Origin: Candidatus Vecturithrix granuli
GTDB taxonomy: Bacteria; Moduliflexota; Moduliflexia; Moduliflexales; Moduliflexaceae
DNA length: 64,000 bases
Direction of reading: 5' to 3'
NCBI GenBank assembly: GCA_000739535.1
Contig: DF820465.1
Coordinates: 819,159 to 883,158 of the forward strand
Part shown: one piece after another, positions 49,264-61,294 of the stretch
Position numbering within the stretch: the stretch's first letter is position 1
Layout: the number at the start of each line of letters is the position of its first letter
Notes under the pieces: model-generated
Seen by the model: the letters and a program-made list of their open reading frames with translations, nothing else
The model's database searches: none
Told to the model about the DNA's origin: nothing
Program-made: the position numbers and the translations under genes

Positions 49264-51438
49264 ATGCAGCGCATTGACGTGTATCCGACGCACCATTATA
49301 AAAATTTTCTCCTTCGTCACGGACGCCCCTATCCTTTTGGCGCAACGATTGTGCCGGGAGGCGTGAATTTTGCCATTTTTTCGCAGCATGCGACGAACTG
49401 TACCTTAGTGTTGTTTGAAAAAGGGAATGAGTCTCCTGTGATTGAAATTCCTTTTCGTGGGATGTTTCCGAAAATTGATGATCGGGATTCTGATTGGGTT
49501 GATTTTCGTCTGGGGAATGTATTCACGATGACCGTGTTTGATCTGGACTATGAGACGCTGGAATACGGCTTTCGCATGGAAGGGCCGGGGCCGAAAGTCA
49601 AACCGGGACAACCAGGGTTTCATCGCTTTGACCCGGAGCAGATTCTGCTCGATCCCTACGCTAAATCAATTGGCGGACGCGATGTGTGGGGAGAATTGCC
49701 CGAGAAACAGCATCCGTATCAACATCGAGGCCGCTTGGTGTATGAAGATTTTGACTGGGAATCGGATCGCCCTTTAGAGACCCCGATTGAAGATTTAATC
49801 ATCTATGAGATGCACGTACGCGGATTGACGCGCCATCCTTCGTCGGGCGTCAAACATCCGGGCACATACACCGCGATCCGCGAGAAAATTCCCTATTTGA
49901 AAGACCTAGGCGTCAATTGCGTGGAATTGATGCCGATCTTTGAATTTGACGAGCTGGAAAATTTTTATCATCGTCCCGATGAGAGCGAATTTCTGATGAA
50001 CTACTGGGGCTACAGCACCATCGGGTTTTTTGCGCCCAAAGCCGGGTATGCTGCGACTGGCAGATTGCACGATGGCACAATGGTCGCGGATGAACTCAAA
50101 ACTCTGATTAAAGAATTGCACAAACACGATATTGAAGTGTTCCTGGATGTGGTATTTAACCATACGGGCGAGGGGAATGAGAAAGGACCGACGATTTCTT
50201 TACGCGGCATTGATAACGCCACGTATTATATGCTCACCAAAGACGGACGTTACGAAAATTACAGCGGCACAGGCAATACCTTGAATTGCAATCATCCCGT
50301 AGTGCGCAATATGCTGCTGGATAGTTTGCGTTACTGGGCGTCAGAGTATCATATTGACGGGTTTCGTTTTGATCTGGCGACGATTTTAGGGCGCGACCAG
50401 CAAGGCGCACCGCTAGCGAATCCGCCCTTATTGGAACAAATGGCGTTTGACCCGATTCTGGCAAAGTGCAAACTGATTGCCGAAGCCTGGGATGCGGGCG
50501 GATTGTATCAGGTTGGCGCGTTTCCAGCCTACGGGCGTTGGGCGGAATGGAACGGGAAATATCGTGATACGCTGCGGCGCTTTCTCAAAGGCGATTCGGG
50601 ACAGGCTGGCGAGATGGCGCAGCGCATCATGGGTTCGCCAGATTTGTACGCCAGCCGCGGGGCTTCGGCCTCCATCAACTTTATTACCTGTCATGATGGT
50701 TTTACGCTGAACGATTTAGTCTCCTATAACGAAAAACACAATGAAGCCAACGGCGAGCATAACCGCGACGGAGCGAATGATAATTACAGTTGGAATTACG
50801 GCGTGGAAGGGCCGACCACTGATCCGACGATCAAAGCGTTGAGGCAGCGGCAAAGGAAAAATGCGATGGCCATGCTTATGCTGAGTCAGGGCGTGCCGAT
50901 GATTCTGATGGGGGATGAGGTCGGGCAAAGCCGGCAGGGGAACAATAACCCCTATTGCCATGATAATGAACTTAACTGGTTCAACTGGACTCTGCTCAAC
51001 ACCAACGCGGAATTGCTGCGCTTTGTCAAAAACTGCATTGTCTTTCGCAAAGCGCACCCGGCATTAAGAAATCGGGAACATTTGACGCGCCGCGATTATG
51101 TGGGGAGCGGATATGCGGATATTAGCTGGCACGGGGTTCAGGTCGGGCAGCCTGATTGGTCGTATCACAGTCATACTCTGGCGTTTCTGCTGTGCGGCCG
51201 GCACGCCCGCAAAGGGGAACATATTGATAACTACATCTATGCGGCCTTCAACATGCACTGGGAAGCACACACCTTTGAACTCCCAGCTTTACCTGAACCA
51301 TTGCGCTGGCGCCGCTTTGTTGACACAAGTTTGCCTGCGCCCGCAGAAATCTGCGAACCAGGCAGCGAATCTCTGCTTGCGGATCAAGAACAGTATGAAT
51401 TATCTGACCGTTCGGTTGTGATTCTGGTAGGAAACTGA
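49264..51438 (+). CDS. glgX: Glycogen debranching enzyme (isoamylase type)
   Basis: 724 residues. An N-terminal CBM48-like domain (PYPFGATIVPGGVNFAIFSQ) is followed by a GH13 barrel of the GlgX/TreX type: DVVFNHTGEG (region II-like), GFRFDLATILGRD with the catalytic Asp, LIAEAWDAGG with the catalytic acid Glu, and FITCHDGFTLNDLVSY. Cuts alpha-1,6 branches of glycogen after phosphorylase trimming, in the cytoplasm. Its neighbours encode a phosphohexomutase and ADP-glucose pyrophosphorylase, so the region is a glycogen synthesis/breakdown block. Confidence 0.95.
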   Translation: MQRIDVYPTHHYKNFLLRHGRPYPFGATIVPGGVNFAIFSQHATNCTLVLFEKGNESPVIEIPFRGMFPKIDDRDSDWVDFRLGNVFTMTVFDLDYETLEYGFRMEGPGPKVKPGQPGFHRFDPEQILLDPYAKSIGGRDVWGELPEKQHPYQHRGRLVYEDFDWESDRPLETPIEDLIIYEMHVRGLTRHPSSGVKHPGTYTAIREKIPYLKDLGVNCVELMPIFEFDELENFYHRPDESEFLMNYWGYSTIGFFAPKAGYAATGRLHDGTMVADELKTLIKELHKHDIEVFLDVVFNHTGEGNEKGPTISLRGIDNATYYMLTKDGRYENYSGTGNTLNCNHPVVRNMLLDSLRYWASEYHIDGFRFDLATILGRDQQGAPLANPPLLEQMAFDPILAKCKLIAEAWDAGGLYQVGAFPAYGRWAEWNGKYRDTLRRFLKGDSGQAGEMAQRIMGSPDLYASRGASASINFITCHDGFTLNDLVSYNEKHNEANGEHNRDGANDNYSWNYGVEGPTTDPTIKALRQRQRKNAMAMLMLSQGVPMILMGDEVGQSRQGNNNPYCHDNELNWFNWTLLNTNAELLRFVKNCIVFRKAHPALRNREHLTRRDYVGSGYADISWHGVQVGQPDWSYHSHTLAFLLCGRHARKGEHIDNYIYAAFNMHWEAHTFELPALPEPLRWRRFVDTSLPAPAEICEPGSESLLADQEQYELSDRSVVILVGN

Positions 51439-51458
51439 CGATCAATCGTCATGGGTTT

Positions 51459-51502
51459 ATAGTTCTCGCTTTAGCGAGTTCTTTGGCCTGAAAGCGAAAC
51501 TA
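51459..51502. repeat. TAGTTCTCGCTTTAGCGAG palindromic repeat
   Basis: TCTCGCTTTAGCGAG then CCTGAAAGCGAAACTA, outer TAGTT / AACTA. It directly abuts the 102-bp element at 51501, so two repeat types are stacked between glgX and pgm. Confidence 0.7.
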
Positions 51503-51602
51503 TAGCAATCCTGCATGATTCGTGTCTCGACTCCGCTCGACAACCGCCCGGTCACTGAGCGGAGTCGAAGTGACTTATGACAAATGATTTAGGATTGCTA
51601 TA
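51501..51602. repeat. 102-bp inverted-repeat element, copy C (MITE-like)
   Basis: Ends TATAGCAATCCTGCAT and, reversed, TATAGCAATCCTAAAT. The core CTCGACTCCGCTCGACAACC ... GAGCGGAGTCGAAG matches copy A, and the length is identical (102). It lies between the convergent glgX and pgm genes. Confidence 0.9.
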
Positions 51603-51622
51603 CACCCCCCTCGACTTCCTTC

Positions 51623-53440
51623 TCAGCCGCGTTTTTCGGCTTCAGTCGCCAGACTTTCGACGTAAGATTGTAAAGCGTCGCGAGTCTCAGCTTTTAATTG
51701 TTCAAATTCCTGAAACGACAGATCCAGGGAAACGTCTTTTCTGATCGCTCCGTAGTATTTGATTTTCGGTTCTGTGCCAGAGGGACGGATCGTGACGCGG
51801 GTATGGCGATCTTCTGAAAGTACAAAGACGAGCACATTGCCTTTGGTTCCCCCGATTGGGCGCAGAGTCTTGCGTGTTTCGGGCGCGATGGCTGCGCCCG
51901 CCTGGCGGTCAATCACTTCAATCACCCGTTTTCCGGCCAGGCTGAGCGGCGGTTGGGCGCGCAGCCCTTCCATCATGCGGGCGACTCTGGCCGTGCCTTC
52001 GGCCCCGGAAACATACACATTTTTCAGCATTTCCAGGAAATAGCCATATTTTCTGTACAGGCTATTGAGATGATCGTAGAGGCTGCGTTTCTGAGATTTG
52101 AGTTCTGCGGCCATTTCTGCCAGCAGGAGCGCGGCAGTCGCCGCATCTTTATCGCGTACAAAATCGCCGCGCAAATATCCCAGGCTTTCTTCCGCGCCAA
52201 AGATAAATTGCTGATCGGGCGGAAGGTTGCGGATGACTTCGGCAATATATTTGAACCCAACCAGCAGATCATCAACTGTCAGCAGGCCGTAGTCTCGGGC
52301 AATTTCGCTGACCATATCCGTCGTGACCATGGTTTTTACAACCACACCTTTTTCAGGCAATTGTCCCTGGTCTTTGAGTTTTTTCCCAATAAAATCCGTT
52401 AATAAAACCCCGACCTGATTGCCATTCAATAACATCCACTGCGCCTGTCCCTCCGGATCAACATGCTTGCAGAACACACCCAGGCGGTCGGCGTCGGGAT
52501 CAGAAGTGAAACCGACGTCCGCGTCCACTTGCTGCGCCAGTTCCATTGCCATCTCTGATGCAGCCGGCAGTTCGGGATTGGGGAAATGATCGTGAACATT
52601 CGGGAAATTGCCGTCGGGGGCCATTTGCGCTTCCACTAAGTGCAAATCTTGAAAGCCGGTCAGGCGTAACACCGGCAGAATAGAGGTCTGGCCTGTGCCA
52701 TGCAAGGGGCTATAGACCAGGCGTACGCTGCGGTTGGGAATCAACGATAACGCCGCGACCTGCGCAATATAGTGTTGGTCAATCTCGTTGCTGACGTAGG
52801 AAAATAGCCCCTGCCGTTCGGCTTCCTGAAGATCTTTCATCTGTAATGTGTTTACTTTGTTGACTTCCGCAATAATCGCCCGATCATGGGGTGGCACTAC
52901 CTGTCCACCGTCCTCCCAATACACCTTGAAGCCGTTATCGCTCGGCGGGTTATGGCTGGCGCTAATGACAATCCCAGCGATTGTCCCTAATTCTCGCACC
53001 GCAAACGACAATTCCGGGGTAGATCGGAATTCTCGGAATAAATAGGTGGTAATGCCATTGCCGCACAGCACTTGCGCGCTGTATTCCGCGAATTGTTTGG
53101 AGTTATTACGGGTATCATAGGCGATCACCACGCCGCGCTGTTTCGCCGCCACGCCAAATTGGCTAATATACGCAGCTAATCCCTGAGCCGATTCCCCGAT
53201 CGTACGTGTATTGATGCGGTTCGGGCCAACACCGCAGGTTCCACGACGTCCGCCGGTACCAAAGGGGATCATTGTATAAAACGCATCTTCCAGTTCATCA
53301 AACTGCTCCTCGCGGATCAGGGTCGCAACCTGGTCACGAAAGAGGAGCAACTCTTGATCGGTCAGCCATTTTTGCGCACTCTTATAGGCTGCGTCGCTTA
53401 TTTTTCCGTTTGCACGGGCTTGTATTAAACGTTCTAACAT
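51623..53440 (-). CDS. Phosphoglucomutase/phosphomannomutase
   Basis: 605 residues from ATG 53440; a longer open frame to 53506 only reads through a hairpin repeat and is not conserved-looking. Four alpha-D-phosphohexomutase domains: active-site loop VISASHNPPSDNGFKVYWED (phosphoserine, residues ~170-189), metal loop FTSDPDADRLGVF, sugar-binding loop GAEESLGYLRGDFVRDKDA, and phosphate-binding loop IRPSGTEPKIKYY near the C-terminus. Length fits the PgcA-like group that interconverts glucose 1- and 6-phosphate. In context it links glucose 6-phosphate to GlgC. Confidence 0.93.
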   Translation of the reverse strand: MLERLIQARANGKISDAAYKSAQKWLTDQELLLFRDQVATLIREEQFDELEDAFYTMIPFGTGGRRGTCGVGPNRINTRTIGESAQGLAAYISQFGVAAKQRGVVIAYDTRNNSKQFAEYSAQVLCGNGITTYLFREFRSTPELSFAVRELGTIAGIVISASHNPPSDNGFKVYWEDGGQVVPPHDRAIIAEVNKVNTLQMKDLQEAERQGLFSYVSNEIDQHYIAQVAALSLIPNRSVRLVYSPLHGTGQTSILPVLRLTGFQDLHLVEAQMAPDGNFPNVHDHFPNPELPAASEMAMELAQQVDADVGFTSDPDADRLGVFCKHVDPEGQAQWMLLNGNQVGVLLTDFIGKKLKDQGQLPEKGVVVKTMVTTDMVSEIARDYGLLTVDDLLVGFKYIAEVIRNLPPDQQFIFGAEESLGYLRGDFVRDKDAATAALLLAEMAAELKSQKRSLYDHLNSLYRKYGYFLEMLKNVYVSGAEGTARVARMMEGLRAQPPLSLAGKRVIEVIDRQAGAAIAPETRKTLRPIGGTKGNVLVFVLSEDRHTRVTIRPSGTEPKIKYYGAIRKDVSLDLSFQEFEQLKAETRDALQSYVESLATEAEKRG

Positions 53441-53447
53441 TTTGAAC

Positions 53448-53498
53448 GTGTTTGAGTGTTTCAGAAAAATCATCAAATATACTGAAACACTCAAACAC
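53448..53498. repeat. 17-bp perfect hairpin with tandem ACTCAAAC units
   Basis: GTGTTTGAGTGTTTCAG (53448-53464) and its exact complement (53482-53498), followed by further ACTCAAAC octamers to 53505. It lies between the response regulator gene and pgm on the minus strand, so it may be a terminator/processing site separating the signalling pair from pgm. Confidence 0.85.
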
Positions 53499-53505
53499 TC
53501 AAACA

Positions 53506-53898
53506 CTATCTATTTGAAACTCGCAAAACCCATTCGATAATTTTTTTGGCCTTTTCAATATCCAGGGGTTTGGAAATAAAGTGTTCTGCCCCGGCGCGTA
53601 AGGCTTCCTCAATCACTTCTTCATGGGAAATGCCGCTGCTCAAGATAATCAGGGTGTTCGGATTGACGCTCATCATTTTGCGCACCAGAATAATGCCATC
53701 CACATCCGGCAGCGACAGGTCCATAGTGACTACATCCGGTTGGAGTTGTTCGTGCAGTTGCAGAGCCTCGGCCCCGGAGGCCGCCTCGCCGATGACATTG
53801 CCGCCCAGTTGCTCCACCAGTTTCACCATACTGCTGCGGGCAAAACGCGAGTCATCCACAATCAAAAAAGTAAACGGATTTCCATCTTTTTTCAGCAT
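53506..53898 (-). CDS. CheY-like single-domain response regulator
   Basis: 130 residues, a lone receiver domain. LIVDDSRFARSSMVKLVEQL gives the acidic pair, VTMDLSLPDVDGI the phosphoacceptor Asp (~residue 57), ILSSG the Thr/Ser position and ISKPLD the Lys. No output domain. It starts nine bases after the stop of the CheA-type gene and is almost certainly its partner. Output may be protein-protein interaction, as for CheY. Confidence 0.95.
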   Translation of the reverse strand: MLKKDGNPFTFLIVDDSRFARSSMVKLVEQLGGNVIGEAASGAEALQLHEQLQPDVVTMDLSLPDVDGIILVRKMMSVNPNTLIILSSGISHEEVIEEALRAGAEHFISKPLDIEKAKKIIEWVLRVSNR

Positions 53899-53907
53899 AC
53901 TCCCCCT

Positions 53908-56900
53908 TTATCCAAAGGCTCGCTGGATGAGCGCCGGCACATCCAAAATGAGCACAACTTTGCCATCGCCAAGTTTTGAGGCGCTTGACGTAATATCCGA
54001 CCGCATGATTTTATTATCCAGCGATTTAATGACCAGTTCTTCTTTTTCCAGCAACTGGTCGGCCAGAATGCCGACTAATTTGCGATCTGAGGAGTGTACC
54101 ACGATCACAGATAATTTCTTGTTTGATGACGGCGGCTGCGGAATGCCCAAAATATCATAGGGGCGTAGTAAATTTACAACTTCACTGCGCAGTTCAAACA
54201 CTTCGCGGTTGCCAACCACGGAAATCTGGTCGGGCCGGATGCGAATGGCTTCCACCACGTTTGACAGCGGAATCGCAAAGGTGCGTTTGCCAACCTCAAA
54301 GACCATCGCTTGAATGATGGCTAAGGTCAGGGGCAGTTTGATGGTGAAGATCGTCCCTTCCCCCAGGCGACTGTCCAACTCGACCGAGCCATTTAGGTTC
54401 TCCACAGTCTGGCGCACAATCATCATGCCGCTGCTTTCTCCGGCGAGACCGTCAGCGCTTAATCTGCCTGAACTATCCAGAAATAAAAGGTTAAAAGTTT
54501 CTGCTTTCGAGAGCTTTTGCACTCTTTCTGCTGTAATTATACCACTTTCAAAGGCGTGACGTTTCATTTTTTCCAGGTCTAACCCGCGGCCATCGTCCTT
54601 CACCATAATTACGATCTGATTCCCTTCGCGGAAAGAGATCAATTCAATTGTGCCTTTTTTGGGTTTTCCTAATTGTTCTCGCACCATCGGCGGTTCAATA
54701 CTATGATCAATGGTATTTTTGATCAGATACAACAGGGGTTCGTCAATCACGTCCACCAGGGTTTTATCCAGATCCGTTTCTTCGCCGCGTACCTGGAGTT
54801 TCACGTCTTTCCCGCTTTTTAACGCCAGATCGCGTACAATTTTGGGGAATTTGCGAAAGACGACATCAATGGGAGTCATGCGCACTTCCATCACATTTTC
54901 CTGGAGGTTGAGCAGGTTTTTGCGGATATTTGCACTGGTTTTTTGAAGTTGATCCAGTAATTTAACAGAGGTTTGAACGCCGTTGATGGATTCGCGGACT
55001 TCATTGAGGCCACGCGCTAAGGTTGAGCCGCCAATAATCAATTCTCCGATAATGTTGACAATGTCATCTAATTTTTTATAGTCAACGCGCAAGGTGCGGG
55101 ATTTGGTTTTCGCGCCAAATGTGAACGCCTCTTCTCCGGTCGCAAATTCTTCTAAATACTCGGAGTCCTCTTTTTGCACGACCAGGATTTCCGGCAGGGT
55201 GAAGACGCTCAGATTCACGGATGATACCACAACTGCGACATTCACCGCATTGAGAATCTCGGTTTTGTCAGTATCTGTGGTATAGAGGATTTTGAAGACT
55301 TCAGCCGCTTTGAATTCTTTGCTGCTTAAGGGGGGAGCAACTTTCACGACTTCGCCATTGACTCCGAGTTTGCGAACAATAATGAACGCGCCGGCGGATT
55401 TCATCTTCCATTCTGCATCGAACTGAATGTCCAACTGATAAATAGACTTGCCTTTTTTTTTTGCTTCGCGCAGTTTCAGAGCTTCATAGCCAGATAATTC
55501 GATACCGCCACGAGGAACCGGCACTTCAATTTTTTGTTCCAGTTCCGGAGAAAGCTGGGAAATCCGTTGTTGCAGACCAGAAATGTCAAAACTACTGGAA
55601 CGCATGGCTTTATAGTCTTTGACCAGGGTTTTCAGCATTTCAATGGCATAAAAGATCAGCGAGATGACAGGTTTCGGAACCTCCAACTCTTCCTCTAACA
55701 ATTGTTTCTTCAAATAGCCTTCGATCTGTTTGGAAGCAGTGGTAATTTTTTCAAATCCCAAAAAGCCTGCATTGCCTTTTAAGGTATGAAATGCTCCGGT
55801 AATGGCCTTTAATTTGGCTTTCTCCTGGGGTGCATTTTCCAGAGCGACTGCATCGTTATCCAACTTGCGCAGAATGTCATCCACTTCATCAAAGAAAATT
55901 GTGAGATATTCTTGCAGCTCTTCATCTTCTTCCACAGTTTCTTCTTCAATCAATACCAACTCCGGATCCACCTGTTTCAAAAATTCAGAAGAGTAGAGAT
56001 CCGTCTCTAAAGGCTGCGAAGAAATCACGCCATTGTGAAACAGTAATTCTCGAAATGAGAGCAGCCCGATTTTGAATAAGTTATCCATAGTCATGGAATA
56101 TTTATTCAGCGAGAGGATTTGCTCCAATTCTTCTTTTTTGAGAGCCAGGGGGTGAGCCAGGATGTCAGCAGCCTGATCGAGGTGTTGATTAATAAATTGG
56201 GTCGCCTTGCAGAAAGCGCGAATTACTGCCTGCACTGTGTGCGGATACTTTTCCAGGTTCTCCCTGAAAGTCATCAAGACACTCTGATCCACCAACCAAT
56301 TGATGTCCCCTTCATTGTCAGGAATTTCGGAACGCGCGCCAGAAAACCAGAATTTTCCACCAATGGCCTGGGCTTTGCTGGTCCAGGGTTCCCAACAAGC
56401 GATGGCGTCCACTTCGCCCTTTTCCATGGCCTCAAGTTGTTGAGCCGGGAGCAAGTGCACAAACTCTACCGTTGTCAGGTCAATCCCAAATTCTTTGGCC
56501 ATGGCTTGTATGGCAATATAGACCGCCGCGCCTTTGGCCATACCAATCCGTTTGCCTTGCAAGTCCTGAGGTTTATGAATCCCGGCATGTTGATGAACAA
56601 CAATTTGCTGGGTTCCGGAAATATCCGCGAGTGGAGCGACAATTTTGACATCCAATCCCTTTTCTTGTAAAACCAGGGTGGTAATCGGGGTCTGGGTAAA
56701 AGCAAAAGGTTTTTTGGGGGCGTTCATAATCTCTTCCGGCATAATGGTGCCCGAGGAGAGCAGACGATATGAGACATCCAGTCCCTCATCCTGGAAAAAC
56801 CCTTTTTCTTTTGCCAGAATCAATTGTCCCGAAATATTGGGATCGCTGACTCCATATAATTCTATTTTGGTTAATTCAGGCGTTTCTGATGGCATTCTGG

Positions 56901-56934
56901 GAAAGAAACAAAGAAAAAGTAAAGAGCAACTCAC
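53908..56934 (-). CDS. Substrate-binding-domain/CheA fusion histidine kinase
   Basis: 1008 residues from GTG 56934 (a stop lies just upstream); ATG 56895 would drop the short hydrophobic start. Residues ~20-290 are an NMT1/SsuA/TauA-type substrate-binding protein: KIELYGVSDPNISGQLILAK, KPQDLQGKRIGMAKGAAVYI, DAIACWEPWTSKA. Then an acidic linker (~325-345), an Hpt domain with AFHTLKGNAGFLGF (His383), a P2-like segment (~490-590), a dimerisation helix pair (~605-670), HATPase_c with YLIKNTIDHSIEP (N box) and VKDDGRGLDL (G1), an altered G2 box (GESSGM), and a CheW domain (~870-1005). It has no clear membrane helix between sensor and kinase. The response regulator gene follows. A ligand-gated CheA of this build is unusual. 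Confidence 0.88.
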   Translation of the reverse strand: MSCSLLFLCFFPRMPSETPELTKIELYGVSDPNISGQLILAKEKGFFQDEGLDVSYRLLSSGTIMPEEIMNAPKKPFAFTQTPITTLVLQEKGLDVKIVAPLADISGTQQIVVHQHAGIHKPQDLQGKRIGMAKGAAVYIAIQAMAKEFGIDLTTVEFVHLLPAQQLEAMEKGEVDAIACWEPWTSKAQAIGGKFWFSGARSEIPDNEGDINWLVDQSVLMTFRENLEKYPHTVQAVIRAFCKATQFINQHLDQAADILAHPLALKKEELEQILSLNKYSMTMDNLFKIGLLSFRELLFHNGVISSQPLETDLYSSEFLKQVDPELVLIEEETVEEDEELQEYLTIFFDEVDDILRKLDNDAVALENAPQEKAKLKAITGAFHTLKGNAGFLGFEKITTASKQIEGYLKKQLLEEELEVPKPVISLIFYAIEMLKTLVKDYKAMRSSSFDISGLQQRISQLSPELEQKIEVPVPRGGIELSGYEALKLREAKKKGKSIYQLDIQFDAEWKMKSAGAFIIVRKLGVNGEVVKVAPPLSSKEFKAAEVFKILYTTDTDKTEILNAVNVAVVVSSVNLSVFTLPEILVVQKEDSEYLEEFATGEEAFTFGAKTKSRTLRVDYKKLDDIVNIIGELIIGGSTLARGLNEVRESINGVQTSVKLLDQLQKTSANIRKNLLNLQENVMEVRMTPIDVVFRKFPKIVRDLALKSGKDVKLQVRGEETDLDKTLVDVIDEPLLYLIKNTIDHSIEPPMVREQLGKPKKGTIELISFREGNQIVIMVKDDGRGLDLEKMKRHAFESGIITAERVQKLSKAETFNLLFLDSSGRLSADGLAGESSGMMIVRQTVENLNGSVELDSRLGEGTIFTIKLPLTLAIIQAMVFEVGKRTFAIPLSNVVEAIRIRPDQISVVGNREVFELRSEVVNLLRPYDILGIPQPPSSNKKLSVIVVHSSDRKLVGILADQLLEKEELVIKSLDNKIMRSDITSSASKLGDGKVVLILDVPALIQRAFG

Positions 56935-56988
56935 ATATCAGTTTACTTTCTGTCTTTATTCCTTGATCCTGATCCTGATGATACTCAT

Positions 56989-58254
56989 CTAATTCCTGAT
57001 CACGCGACCAGAGGCAATCTCGGTCTGGTCCTGAATTGTCACACCGGACCAAATCAAAACATTGCGACCAACCTTCACCTGTTTATGAATACACACTTCT
57101 TTGCCAAGCACGGTAATGCCCGAACTGAAATCCTGGGGAAATTCTTCATTGGGTACCGACACATCACCTACCCCGATTTGCGACTCTGCGCCAATCATCA
57201 CATCTTTATCGGTAATCACGTAATCGACAACTGCCCCTTGTTTGATCAGGCTTTCGTGAAAAATGATGGAATTTCGGACAACCGCGCCTTCTTCCACAAC
57301 AACTCCGGGCGAGAGAATACTATGTTCTACGGCGCCGCCAATCATGCACCCGGAGGCGATCATGGAGTCTTTCACTCTGGCTGTTGGAAGGATGATAGCG
57401 GGCTGATGGCCGCCAATATTGCGATCTTCAAGATTGGTTCTCACATTCCAGTTCCAAATATCAATTGCAGGAGGGTCGGTTAATAAATCCATATTGGCTT
57501 GCCAATACTCTTCAACCGTACCGCAATAGGCCCAATATCCTTCAAAGGGGTAACCATAGAACTGGCTCTGTGATTGCAGCATATCGGGCACAATATTATC
57601 GGCAAAATTGTGTTTGGAGGCAGGATTACGAGCATCGGCTGCTAATTTTTCGAGCAAAAAATCGGTGTTGAACACATAAATGCCGGCCGAATAATACTCT
57701 CCTTGTATGATTTTGGGTTTTTCCTGGTACGACACGACTCGACCGGTCTCATCGAGGCTCATAATGCCAAAACGCTGCGGATTCGGGGCCGGGAGGCGAT
57801 TACACACCAGGGTACACTCCGCATTCTTATCGAGATGAAAGCGCAGAAGTTGATGATAATCCATTTCATAAATATTTTCTCCGGCCAGGATCATGACCTG
57901 CGACGGGTGGTGGTCGGTGATAAAATTGAGATTTTGGTACACAGCGTCAGCCGTGCCTTTATACCAATCGGCGTCTTTTTTGCCTTTATACGGCGGAAGA
58001 ATTTTGACTGCGCGTGTGCGTCCATACAAATCCCAGGGGATGCCAACGCCAACATGATCAATTAAGGAAGAGGGGCGATATTGCGCCAGAATTCCGACAT
58101 GTTCAATATCGGAATTCGTGAGATTACTCAGCACAAAATCAATGATGCGATACATTCCTCCAAACGGAATTGCCGCTTTTGCTCGACGCTCGGCGAGAAT
58201 CCCCAATGGGCTGAAGGCTCCTCCGGCTAATACCATTGCAACAACTTTTTCCAT
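56989..58254 (-). CDS. glgC: Glucose-1-phosphate adenylyltransferase
   Basis: 421 residues from ATG 58254, chosen for GGAGA upstream and because MEKVVAMVLAGG is the normal family start; a longer frame to 58359 is unlikely. Nucleotide-binding LAGGAFSPLGILAERRAKAA then IPFGGMYRIIDFVLSN (residues ~8-45), GTADAVYQNL, and a C-terminal left-handed beta-helix with hexapeptide repeats. The usual GGxGxRLxPLT consensus is modified here (AFSPLGILAE), worth noting, but the rest is typical GlgC. Makes ADP-glucose for glycogen. Minus strand, in tandem with the CheA fusion gene after a 54-base gap. Confidence 0.9.
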   Translation of the reverse strand: MEKVVAMVLAGGAFSPLGILAERRAKAAIPFGGMYRIIDFVLSNLTNSDIEHVGILAQYRPSSLIDHVGVGIPWDLYGRTRAVKILPPYKGKKDADWYKGTADAVYQNLNFITDHHPSQVMILAGENIYEMDYHQLLRFHLDKNAECTLVCNRLPAPNPQRFGIMSLDETGRVVSYQEKPKIIQGEYYSAGIYVFNTDFLLEKLAADARNPASKHNFADNIVPDMLQSQSQFYGYPFEGYWAYCGTVEEYWQANMDLLTDPPAIDIWNWNVRTNLEDRNIGGHQPAIILPTARVKDSMIASGCMIGGAVEHSILSPGVVVEEGAVVRNSIIFHESLIKQGAVVDYVITDKDVMIGAESQIGVGDVSVPNEEFPQDFSSGITVLGKEVCIHKQVKVGRNVLIWSGVTIQDQTEIASGRVIRN

Positions 58255-58675
58255 AGGTTTTTTCTCCCTGCAAGACTTTATCAACTTCAGTGACTTTTTC
58301 GTTAACGTACAATTGACAAGCAGATATGTCAAGGAAAAATCTTGTCTCGTATTTGTCATAGATCGGGATGGACGGAAAAAAATCTGTCAATCCTTTGAAA
58401 TCGAGAAAGATGAGAGCATAATTTCCAGGGGTTTTGAAAATATGAGGTGAATTCTACAGTCTGATCATAGCAAGATATTTATTTAGTCTTGACAATTTTA
58501 CGCCTTCTCAATACAGGTTCTCAGGAATCTTCATAATGAAGATCCGATATTGGAATTTTTGTGGAAAGCTGGCACGCAAAAGTAGAACTTTTGCACTCCA
58601 ATTCATCATTACAGAATTATTTACAGCAACATATTTGGGGAAATTTTATATCAACGAAAGAAACAGGGCAGGCTC
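58255..58675. other. Intergenic region between divergent glgC and CHASE2 genes
   Basis: 421 bases between divergent genes, so it should hold promoters for both. A TTGACA lies at 58489-58494 (+ strand) with ATACAG 16 bases on, a weak -10. No repeat and no convincing ORF were seen; the ORF 58561-58773 is out of frame with the real gene. Confidence 0.3.
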
Positions 58676-61294
58676 ATGAAACGGTTGATTGCGTTTTTTC
58701 TTGGAATTTTCAGCGCGTTGGTGATGATTGGTATCCATTATTCAACCATTCCGCCTCTATCGCAGTTTCTTAAAAAAATCGAACTTCAAAGCCTTGATTA
58801 TCGGATGAAATATGCGAAGAAGGTGCCCGATCTCTCAGACGCAATTAAGATCGTCTTAGTCAATGATGCAACAAATTTAAGTGATAAACTCGCTGCCTTT
58901 ACTCGCCTCATCACAACGGTGCAAGAGGGGGCATTGAAACCAAAAGTGATCGGGTTTAATTATCGATTTGATGCGTCAGAACATGAAGAGCTCATCAGCA
59001 TTGCTTCAACGGCAGGAAATATTTATTATGGGTATTCCTTTCAATTCCAGGTCGAAGAAGAGTCGCCGAACCAGGATATCTTACCTTTTCGTCTGGAAAT
59101 TACCAATATTGGCGACGACAATTCCAACGTCTTTGAGGCTCAACAAGTGCAACTCCCTTCGCACAAATATCTGACGACCGCCAGAGGCATTGGTTTTGTG
59201 AATACTCTGCCGGATGTTGATGGAGTGTTTCGCCGTATCCCACTTTTCTTGAGATATCAGGGGAATTGGTATGGCTCCTTATCGCTCTTGATCGCGATGG
59301 AATACCTCGATGTCGGGAGTGTTGATATGACGTTTTATCCCGGTCAGTATGTTGAAATTACCAAAATAGATGGCACATTTATGAAAATCCCGGTCAATCA
59401 ATATGGCGAAATGTTGATTGATTTTGCCTACGGTTCTGACAAGAAGAATGGAGTGCCTTTTGAGATATTTTCAATGGAAAATGATGTGTTGGCATATCAA
59501 GAGCAGATTCTTAATGGGGTGATTCCTGAGTCACTCCGGTCGCTGCAAGGGGCGATTGTGCTGGTTGGCTCAGGAGGCCGCTATCCGATTCCTCTCAGCG
59601 CCTCGTATCCGCTCATTGGCATTCATGCCAATTTTATCAATACGATTCTAACGAACCAGTTTATTCGAGATCTATCGCCGGTGTTTTTTGTCGGTGTGCT
59701 CGTTCTGCTTGGGATGTTGACCGGACTGGCGTGCGGAATCCATCGGTGGTGGATTAAAATTCTGCTTGGCCTGCTGCTTGCGGGATGCTATGTTGCGGTG
59801 GCGTTTGGCGTGTTTTATCAGTTTAAACTGTTACTCCCGATCCTTCCTGTACTTCTGACAATCTGTCTGACGACGCTCATCGCAGGGATCGTGGTCCGTC
59901 ATCCTGCACAGCCGAAAACCGCTAAATCGCAGGCCCAACCGATTAAAGAGAAAAAACGCAAAATCAAGGCAGCGCCGGATGATGTGGTGGAATTAGAAAA
60001 TACGCTTATCGAAATTCGTGAAGATTTAGACCGAAAAAGTATCCGTTTACGATCAAAAATTGAAGAAGTGCGTATTCTTCAGGAACAGGCGGAAAGCAAC
60101 CATTACGATTATAGCCGACAGGTCGTGTCGCTGCAAAAAGAGATTCGGGCCAGAGAAATTGAGATCAAGGGATTAATTGCCAAAGAAGAAGAGCTGCGCC
60201 GCCAATTTGAAAATCTTCCGTTTAATGTGCCGGATGTCGTCCAGAGTCGGTATAACCCGGAAGCCATTGTGCAGCTCTTCGCCCCTTATGGGTTTGTGAC
60301 CAATAATGACTATATCTTGCGCACGCTCGCCCGTGCTGAAAAATTAGGAAAAACCTCTGTCGCTTTGTTAATTCAGGGGGAACCTGGCACGGGAAAAAAA
60401 CTCCTGGCTCACATTATCCGCCAATTGAGTTCGCGCCATAATCGTCCGATGCTTGAAGTGATTTGCGCCGGGGATATGGATTTATTGGAAGATGATTTAT
60501 TTGGACATCGTAAAGGTGCGTTTCCAGGGGCCGATGAGCACCGGATGGGGTTCTTCCGCAAAGTGGACGAAGGAACTTTAGTGCTGGAAGAGATTGGGAA
60601 CCTGTCAATGGAAATCCAAACCCGCTTGATTCAAACCGCCAGAGGCAAAGCGGTGCGACCCCTGGGCGAAGATCTGGGGTTTTCTGTAGATGTCAGGATT
60701 ATTGCCACGACCAGTCACAATTTACAGGACCTTGTGGCGAAAGGATTGTTCAGAGAAGATCTGTATCATTATTTTTCTGTGTTTCCGCTCTACCTTTTAC
60801 CTCTGCGCGAGCGCAAGGAAGATATTCCTATGTTGGTGAATCATTTCATTGCCAAATACAATCTCATTCACAGCAAAATCGTCGAAAGAGCCTCTGACGA
60901 CGCATTAAATCTTCTGTTTCAGCATCAATGGCCAGGTAATATCATCGAATTGGAAAAAGTGATTGAACGCGCTATTGCTGAAGTCAATCCGGGGGAACGA
61001 GAACTTGCTGCCAAAAATATCAGCTTTGAAGAAGCTAATCTGAATAGCGGCATTACTGATCCGGGCATGTTAAATTATCTGCTGGCGTTAATGGATAGCC
61101 AGCGAGAATTACCAGCCTACCAACCTTTGCGTGAAAAAGTACTGGCAGAAATTCAACGCTTATATTGCGTCCGGTTATTGCGTCTGCACCAGGGAAATGT
61201 CAAAAATGCCTCTATCGATGCCGGCTTGAAACCGGAAACCTTTAAAAAAATGCTCTCAGAGCTGATGATTGATCCTGAACATTATCACTATTGA
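58676..61294 (+). CDS. CHASE2 sensor with sigma-54-type AAA domain and Fis-like HTH
   Basis: 872 residues. An N-terminal helix and extracytoplasmic CHASE2 domain (~residues 25-330: LQSLDYRMKYAKK, VDGVFRRIPLF) are followed by three membrane helices (~334-408), a coiled coil (~437-515), an AAA+ domain (~545-775) and a Fis-type HTH (~835-872). Walker A GEPGTGKKLLA (~568-578) and the R-finger region FREDLYHYFSVFPL then LPLRERKEDIPML are kept. The sigma-54 contact loop reads GAFPGA (614-619) instead of GAFTGA, and Walker B is LVLEEIGN with Glu in place of the first Asp. By layout a membrane-bound transcription regulator; the changed loop casts doubt on sigma-54 activation. Confidence 0.85.
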   Translation: MKRLIAFFLGIFSALVMIGIHYSTIPPLSQFLKKIELQSLDYRMKYAKKVPDLSDAIKIVLVNDATNLSDKLAAFTRLITTVQEGALKPKVIGFNYRFDASEHEELISIASTAGNIYYGYSFQFQVEEESPNQDILPFRLEITNIGDDNSNVFEAQQVQLPSHKYLTTARGIGFVNTLPDVDGVFRRIPLFLRYQGNWYGSLSLLIAMEYLDVGSVDMTFYPGQYVEITKIDGTFMKIPVNQYGEMLIDFAYGSDKKNGVPFEIFSMENDVLAYQEQILNGVIPESLRSLQGAIVLVGSGGRYPIPLSASYPLIGIHANFINTILTNQFIRDLSPVFFVGVLVLLGMLTGLACGIHRWWIKILLGLLLAGCYVAVAFGVFYQFKLLLPILPVLLTICLTTLIAGIVVRHPAQPKTAKSQAQPIKEKKRKIKAAPDDVVELENTLIEIREDLDRKSIRLRSKIEEVRILQEQAESNHYDYSRQVVSLQKEIRAREIEIKGLIAKEEELRRQFENLPFNVPDVVQSRYNPEAIVQLFAPYGFVTNNDYILRTLARAEKLGKTSVALLIQGEPGTGKKLLAHIIRQLSSRHNRPMLEVICAGDMDLLEDDLFGHRKGAFPGADEHRMGFFRKVDEGTLVLEEIGNLSMEIQTRLIQTARGKAVRPLGEDLGFSVDVRIIATTSHNLQDLVAKGLFREDLYHYFSVFPLYLLPLRERKEDIPMLVNHFIAKYNLIHSKIVERASDDALNLLFQHQWPGNIIELEKVIERAIAEVNPGERELAAKNISFEEANLNSGITDPGMLNYLLALMDSQRELPAYQPLREKVLAEIQRLYCVRLLRLHQGNVKNASIDAGLKPETFKKMLSELMIDPEHYHY

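Follow-up and report, generated by a model that had tools for sequence, protein, structure and literature searches.

CheA is normally instructed by separate chemoreceptors. What could a CheA-like protein with a solute-binding domain of its own be sensing, and is it still a kinase? This question is raised by a gene in the window, the 64,000-nucleotide stretch of Candidatus Vecturithrix granuli DNA that we analysed (contig DF820465.1, positions 819,159 to 883,158; window numbering is used throughout). The gene, on the minus strand (53908..56934), encodes an NMT1/SsuA-like binding domain fused to a CheA homologue in a single open frame of 1008 residues, counted from GTG 56934 (alternative ATG 56895). 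We consider it practically certain that the fusion is real, conserved and cytosolic.

All domains of the fusion protein exceed their Pfam gathering cut-offs. The binding domain spans residues 21–330 (55945..56874), with the NMT1 match (PF09084) covering residues 37–254 at E 1.3e-26 and 94 bits, against a cut-off of 20.5. Beyond it, the CheA domain order P1-P2-P3-P4-P5 is complete. The Hpt (P1) domain (55690..55911, residues 342–415) carries the conserved, phospho-accepting His383, and P2, which docks the response regulator, lies at 55213..55443 (PF07194, residues 498–574). The P3 dimerisation domain (54883..55101; PF02895, H-kinase_dim, residues 612–684) leads into the P4 HATPase domain (54325..54864; HATPase_c, residues 737–870, E 4e-12) and an intact P5 CheW-like coupling domain (53917..54312; PF01584, residues 875–1006, E 5e-25). 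Nine bases past the stop codon, on the same strand, begins the open reading frame of a lone CheY-like receiver (53506..53898; PF00072, E 6e-25), with D15, D16, D60, S88 and K110 conserved. Pfam bears out what a first-pass annotation of this DNA had read here, namely a 1008-residue frame with a binding fold, Hpt (His383), P2, HATPase and CheW domains, followed after nine bases by a single-domain receiver.

The full-length fusion and its receiver are present in all four genomes of phylum KSB3 examined, that of the window (G000) and G001, G002 and G003, whose co-linear orthologues are 68%, 55% and 54% identical to the window fusion, respectively. Because these three genomes share the full-length order, receiver included, the fusion is not a sequencing or assembly artefact; a frame error, or the joining of separate genes in sequencing or assembly, is ruled out by co-linear fusions in four genomes. 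Fusion and receiver are under purifying selection and are not decaying. The ratio of nonsynonymous to synonymous divergence (dN/dS) between G002 and G003 was 0.09 for NMT1, 0.13 for Hpt, 0.04 for P3, 0.05 for P4, 0.03 for P5 and 0.06 for the receiver, and the selection on P4, P5, NMT1 and receiver argues against decay. NMT1 is the best conserved domain of the protein (window versus G002, dN of 0.22 against 0.30–0.59 elsewhere), and P5/CheW is among the better conserved parts.

Does the CheA part retain the motifs of a kinase? Its ATP-binding motifs were aligned with those of 17 reference CheAs, each from a different locus and one of them (L031, G000:C18:114360-115571) a separate CheA encoded in the window's genome. 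All 17 references have an intact N-box Asn, F box (GFS/T) and G2 box (GRGVG[ML]). None of the four fusions retains the F box or the G2 box; in the window, the degenerate region of F box, ATP lid and G2 box (54424..54495, minus strand) reads FLDSSGRLSADGLAGESSGM instead of F.PGFST...SGRGVGM, and the first-pass annotation had correctly noted GESSGM in place of GRGVGM. The N-box Asn is missing from three fusions (His, Ser and Ser), while the window copy keeps N740. G1 (DDGRG) and the Hpt His, the window's His383 lying within H-x-x-K-G, are kept in all four. Judged by these motifs, the fusion is a degenerate CheA homologue, and we do not count it as a proven CheA kinase. Given the known roles of the lost motifs, ATP binding and autophosphorylation are probably impaired, with self-phosphorylation weak or absent. 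We regard kinase impairment as likely across the family and, somewhat less firmly, as likely in the window copy.

These observations divide the first-pass proposal of a receptor-free, ligand-gated CheA kinase. The ligand sensor is plausible; the kinase is doubtful, with the F and G2 boxes gone from every fusion and the N-box Asn from three. Nor is the protein's independence of receptors supported. Its CheW domain is intact and well conserved, and the window's genome encodes roughly 65–70 methyl-accepting chemotaxis protein (MCP) signalling domains, which makes coupling to an array likelier than a receptor-free kinase.

The binding domain matches the SsuA family (TIGR01728) at 2e-34, under that model's cut-off. 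A structural model of the NMT1 domain, used for fold class only at a predicted local distance difference test (pLDDT) score of 60, gave Foldseek matches to SsuA, TauA, ThiY, NrtC and CmpC, the structures of NrtC/CmpC included; the full-length AlphaFold model (pLDDT 47) was of too low a quality for use. In an alignment of the sensors with two transport solute-binding proteins (SBPs), 27 columns are invariant, among them a W-x-P-W motif. The comparison places the origin of the domain in an ATP-binding cassette (ABC) importer SBP that has evidently lost its signal peptide. A hydropathy scan, the sole basis for location, revealed no signal peptide or other sign of export in the four fusions or in seven paralogues described below (19-residue peaks of 0.3–1.22 over the N-terminal ~58 residues), and no membrane helix separating sensor from kinase. 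Two exported transport relatives peak at 2.1–2.2 in the same scan. Since neither signal peptide nor membrane helix is predicted in orthologues or paralogues, the NMT1 domain is almost certainly cytosolic throughout, in line with the first-pass suggestion, made for the window copy, of a possibly cytosolic ligand. The first-pass reading of the domain as a ligand sensor is plausible too, and we expect that the domain does still bind a ligand.

The genome of the window encodes seven further proteins, of 459–479 residues, whose N-terminal half is 38–57% identical to the NMT1 domain of the fusion and whose C-terminal part is a receiver. The receivers of these seven are also the seven best genome matches of the lone receiver (35–43% identity, E 1e-28 to 2e-20), the next-best match following at E 6e-16. 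Because all seven best matches sit on NMT1-receiver proteins, the NMT1 domain and this type of receiver appear to form one signalling unit, either with CheA between them or directly fused. The receiver active-site residues (acidic pair, phospho-Asp, Thr/Ser and Lys) are intact in all eleven receivers. In a tree, the eleven sensor NMT1 domains stand apart from importer SBPs (support 100/99), and the four CheA versions group together (91/89), a topology compatible both with insertion of CheA and with its loss to yield NMT1-receivers. The genome scored 10.75% contaminated, and a contaminant origin of the paralogues was considered; we judged it unlikely, since the contigs that carry them are large (456 kb to 1.15 Mb) and the window's own contig holds two. 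Downstream of one paralogue (L024 5663-11057, G000:C18), and in its orientation, come genes whose translations read as two CheR-like methyltransferases with a HEAT-repeat-like protein between them, an arrangement that looks like part of a separate chemosensory operon.

Clues to the ligand come from the nearest transport proteins to the NMT1 domain. These are 33–38% identical to it and are encoded in permease-ATPase-permease-SBP operons, most of which then carry a dihydropyrimidinase/hydantoinase-like gene; these dihydropyrimidinase-like genes score under the equivalog cut-off. A Butyricicoccus relative adjoins a gene for the allantoinase AllB (431 bits, cut-off 358). Within 1.5-kb flanks, a cyclic amidohydrolase lies near 12 of 15 loci of the subfamily versus 4 of 30 other NMT1 loci of the same phylum (Fisher P 2e-5, a value that overstates the evidence, the amidohydrolase-linked loci being related to each other and mostly from one phylum). 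In KSB3 itself, G000 encodes a dihydropyrimidinase (465 residues, 633 bits against a cut-off of 393), of which G001 has a homologue, while two allantoinases are encoded in G002 and have homologues in G003; because of these enzymes, cyclic ureides could occur in the cytosol. With the closest transport relatives adjoining cyclic amidohydrolases and KSB3 encoding such enzymes, a cyclic ureide, for example a dihydropyrimidine or allantoin, is our best guess at the ligand class, offered well short of even confidence. By the same genomic context, taurine, nitrate and precursors of thiamine, the ligands suggested in the first pass, are less likely. Two further observations concern these genes. A true dihydropyrimidinase gene of G000 (8980-10377 of L089, minus strand) lies near a chemosensory cluster of a CheA, an MCP and two receiver-bearing genes (L089 768-10377, G000:C15:194000-212000). 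The second is a candidate cyclic-ureide importer family in the phylum of genome G088 (L063–L079, L047): its ABC importer operon is conserved, and in most cases a hydantoinase/dihydropyrimidinase-like gene comes next.

How might such a protein signal? The account we favour, with a little under even confidence, joins a cytosolic ligand sensor to a CheA with impaired catalysis; that CheA would obtain phosphate in trans and relay it to its own receiver. On sensing a small molecule in the cytosol, which may be a cyclic ureide, the NMT1 domain would close its clamshell. The CheA part, having lost its ATP-lid motifs, would retain dimerisation, CheW coupling, P2 docking and a phosphorylatable Hpt. A competent CheA would phosphorylate this Hpt in trans, through P3 heterodimers or within a receptor/CheW array, a step that we put forward tentatively. 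From Hpt the phosphate would pass to the adjacent lone receiver by way of P2 docking, and clamshell closure would alter either phosphotransfer or coupling to the array. On a wider and more speculative view, which we find possible and do not expect, the proteins form a lineage-specific family in which a cytosolic former importer domain is attached interchangeably to a pseudokinase CheA or directly to receivers; a metabolite would then control array phosphotransfer, needing neither CheA catalysis nor a dedicated chemoreceptor. Several points weigh against the trans-phosphorylation account. No trans-acting partner kinase was identified. The window copy keeps N740 and G1, so that it may bind ATP or act as a kinase to some degree. 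The integrity of the binding pocket is predicted from sequence conservation, the structural models (pLDDT 60 and 47) being unreliable at the site, and the amidohydrolase-linked relatives, besides being distant at 33–38% identity and mostly of one phylum, are non-independent.

The retained motifs also feed the closest alternative, an active CheA gated directly by a cytosolic ligand, whose altered lid still supports ATP hydrolysis and which phosphorylates its own receiver. It would explain the full domain set, the cognate receiver next door and the intact N740, G1 and Hpt His of the window copy. We nonetheless doubt it, since it must accommodate the loss from every fusion of two boxes that are invariant among the references, and of the N-box Asn from three. 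A further possibility, and a rather unlikely one, reverses the flow: phosphorylated receivers would hand phosphate to the Hpt/pseudokinase module, which would act as a scaffold or phosphate sink and tune receptor arrays according to ligand. That a degenerate P4 remains under purifying selection, with Hpt and P2 retained, fits such a role, as do the seven additional NMT1-receivers that could exchange phosphate; the direction of flow, however, has no direct evidence, and DivL, a pseudo-histidine kinase that might serve as precedent, lacks the CheA architecture.

The remaining alternatives concern the binding domain. Having left its transport context, and with seven copies sitting on receivers that could be regulated by oligomerisation, NMT1 might have ceased to bind small molecules and become a dimerisation or protein-docking module. 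We think this improbable, as no other domain is so conserved between window and G002 and as 27 columns, W-x-P-W included, are invariant between the sensors and two transport SBPs. Far less credible still is an N-terminal signal anchor that would place the domain in the periplasm. The short hydrophobic stretch that the first-pass annotation had seen is real in the window frame (SLLFLCFF), and a similar one occurs in G001, where the TTG start that yields the extension is preceded by AGGAG. The stretch is missing from G002, G003 and most paralogues, however, and no transmembrane segment divides binding domain from kinase; N-terminal hydropathy also peaks well below the values of the exported relatives. 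In G001 an ATG aligns with the in-frame ATG 56895, and near this position lie the starts of G002, G003 and most paralogues; the stretch may lie upstream of the true start, which is perhaps ATG 56895. Neither window candidate, GTG 56934 or ATG 56895, has a clear Shine-Dalgarno sequence.

In the window, a glgC-like nucleotidyltransferase gene lies upstream in the same orientation (56989..58359, minus strand) and a phosphoglucomutase/phosphomannomutase gene downstream (51623..53506, minus strand). The order glgC, CheA fusion, receiver, pgm is maintained in G001; in G002 and G003, fusion and receiver adjoin a myo-inositol-1-phosphate synthase gene (Pfam checked on the G003 copy). No permease or ATPase gene was found beside the fusions, only these neighbours, which make a connection with sugar metabolism possible. 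The window's fusion sits in a glycogen/sugar-nucleotide neighbourhood (49264-58359) that comprises a glgX-like gene (49264-51438), phosphoglucomutase and glgC. Divergent from glgC, 58676-61294 encodes an 872-residue protein with CHASE2, a coiled-coil-like stretch and a sigma-54 activator AAA+ domain, and a G001 homologue occupies the equivalent position. In the search for homologues in other phyla, a scan of genome contigs with strict binding-domain patterns hit nothing but two contigs of KSB3 and an exported SBP of Butyricicoccus. Across 385 genomes of many families, just one more protein matched strongly, an exported importer SBP of G088, and a plasmid search with the NMT1 domain gave only distant SBPs (24–26% identity). 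At the sensitivity of these pattern, genome and plasmid searches, to which the lack of fusions beyond the phylum applies, the fusion signalling unit is specific to KSB3.

The locus combines a small-molecule sensor built into a CheA-type protein inside the cell with the loss of the catalytic lid from a protein otherwise under selection. This suggests that, in a little-known phylum, a chemical signal from inside the cell enters the chemotaxis machinery by an unusual route. If the account holds, it describes a route by which internal metabolism reaches chemosensory arrays, and a rare CheA pseudokinase; the seven NMT1-receiver proteins suggest how receivers themselves become ligand-responsive. In the literature searched, we found neither a CheA carrying a cytosolic solute-binding domain, nor an NMT1-receiver family, nor a CheA pseudokinase; NMT1 and CheA are also absent from the main text of the KSB3 genome paper.

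Compared with Thermotoga maritima CheA (1b3q/3ja6), which the fusion matches at E 1e-75 over P3–P5, the P1–P5 order, Hpt His and CheW domain are shared, as are N740 and G1 in the window copy; the extra N-terminal NMT1 domain, the lost F and G2 boxes and the N-box Asn absent from three of four orthologues set the fusion apart. The Rhodobacter sphaeroides split kinase CheA3/CheA4 likewise includes an Hpt-bearing CheA without a working kinase domain of its own, and there CheA4 loads CheA3 by trans-phosphorylation (PMC6829392). In CheA3, however, the kinase domain is wholly absent, whereas here P4 is present, degenerate and accompanied by a ligand domain. DivL (PMC4211667) also retains a histidine-kinase fold in a changed signalling role, its catalytic domain repurposed as an input sensor, but is of HisKA type and unrelated to CheA in architecture.

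Decoration of a CheA is no novelty by itself, because sensor domains on array components are already known: spirochete CheWS, a CheW with a CheR-like S-adenosylmethionine sensor, has been presented as the first CheW-fused chemotaxis sensor to be characterised, in a paper that also counts 75 CheW-containing architectures and regards them as CheA homologues (PMC10653840). CheWS resembles the window protein in placing an intracellular ligand sensor on a chemotaxis array component; the latter differs in being a CheA with an SBP and, by Pfam, no CheR-like domain. SsuA/TauA/ThiY-type SBPs, especially the subfamily near hydantoinase/allantoinase genes, share fold, family, 33–38% identity and W-x-P-W, but are exported, as lipoproteins or as periplasmic proteins, and work with an importer. 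The cyanobacterial ABC ATPases NrtC and CmpC (8wm7, 9uai, 9uak) likewise carry an NMT1/NrtA-type domain that is cytosolic and regulatory; in NrtC this domain bears a putative site for nitrate, and ammonium inhibition depends on the domain (PMC6603209). Their domain belongs to another subfamily and lies C-terminal to an ABC ATPase, whereas in KSB3 its partner is CheA or a receiver.

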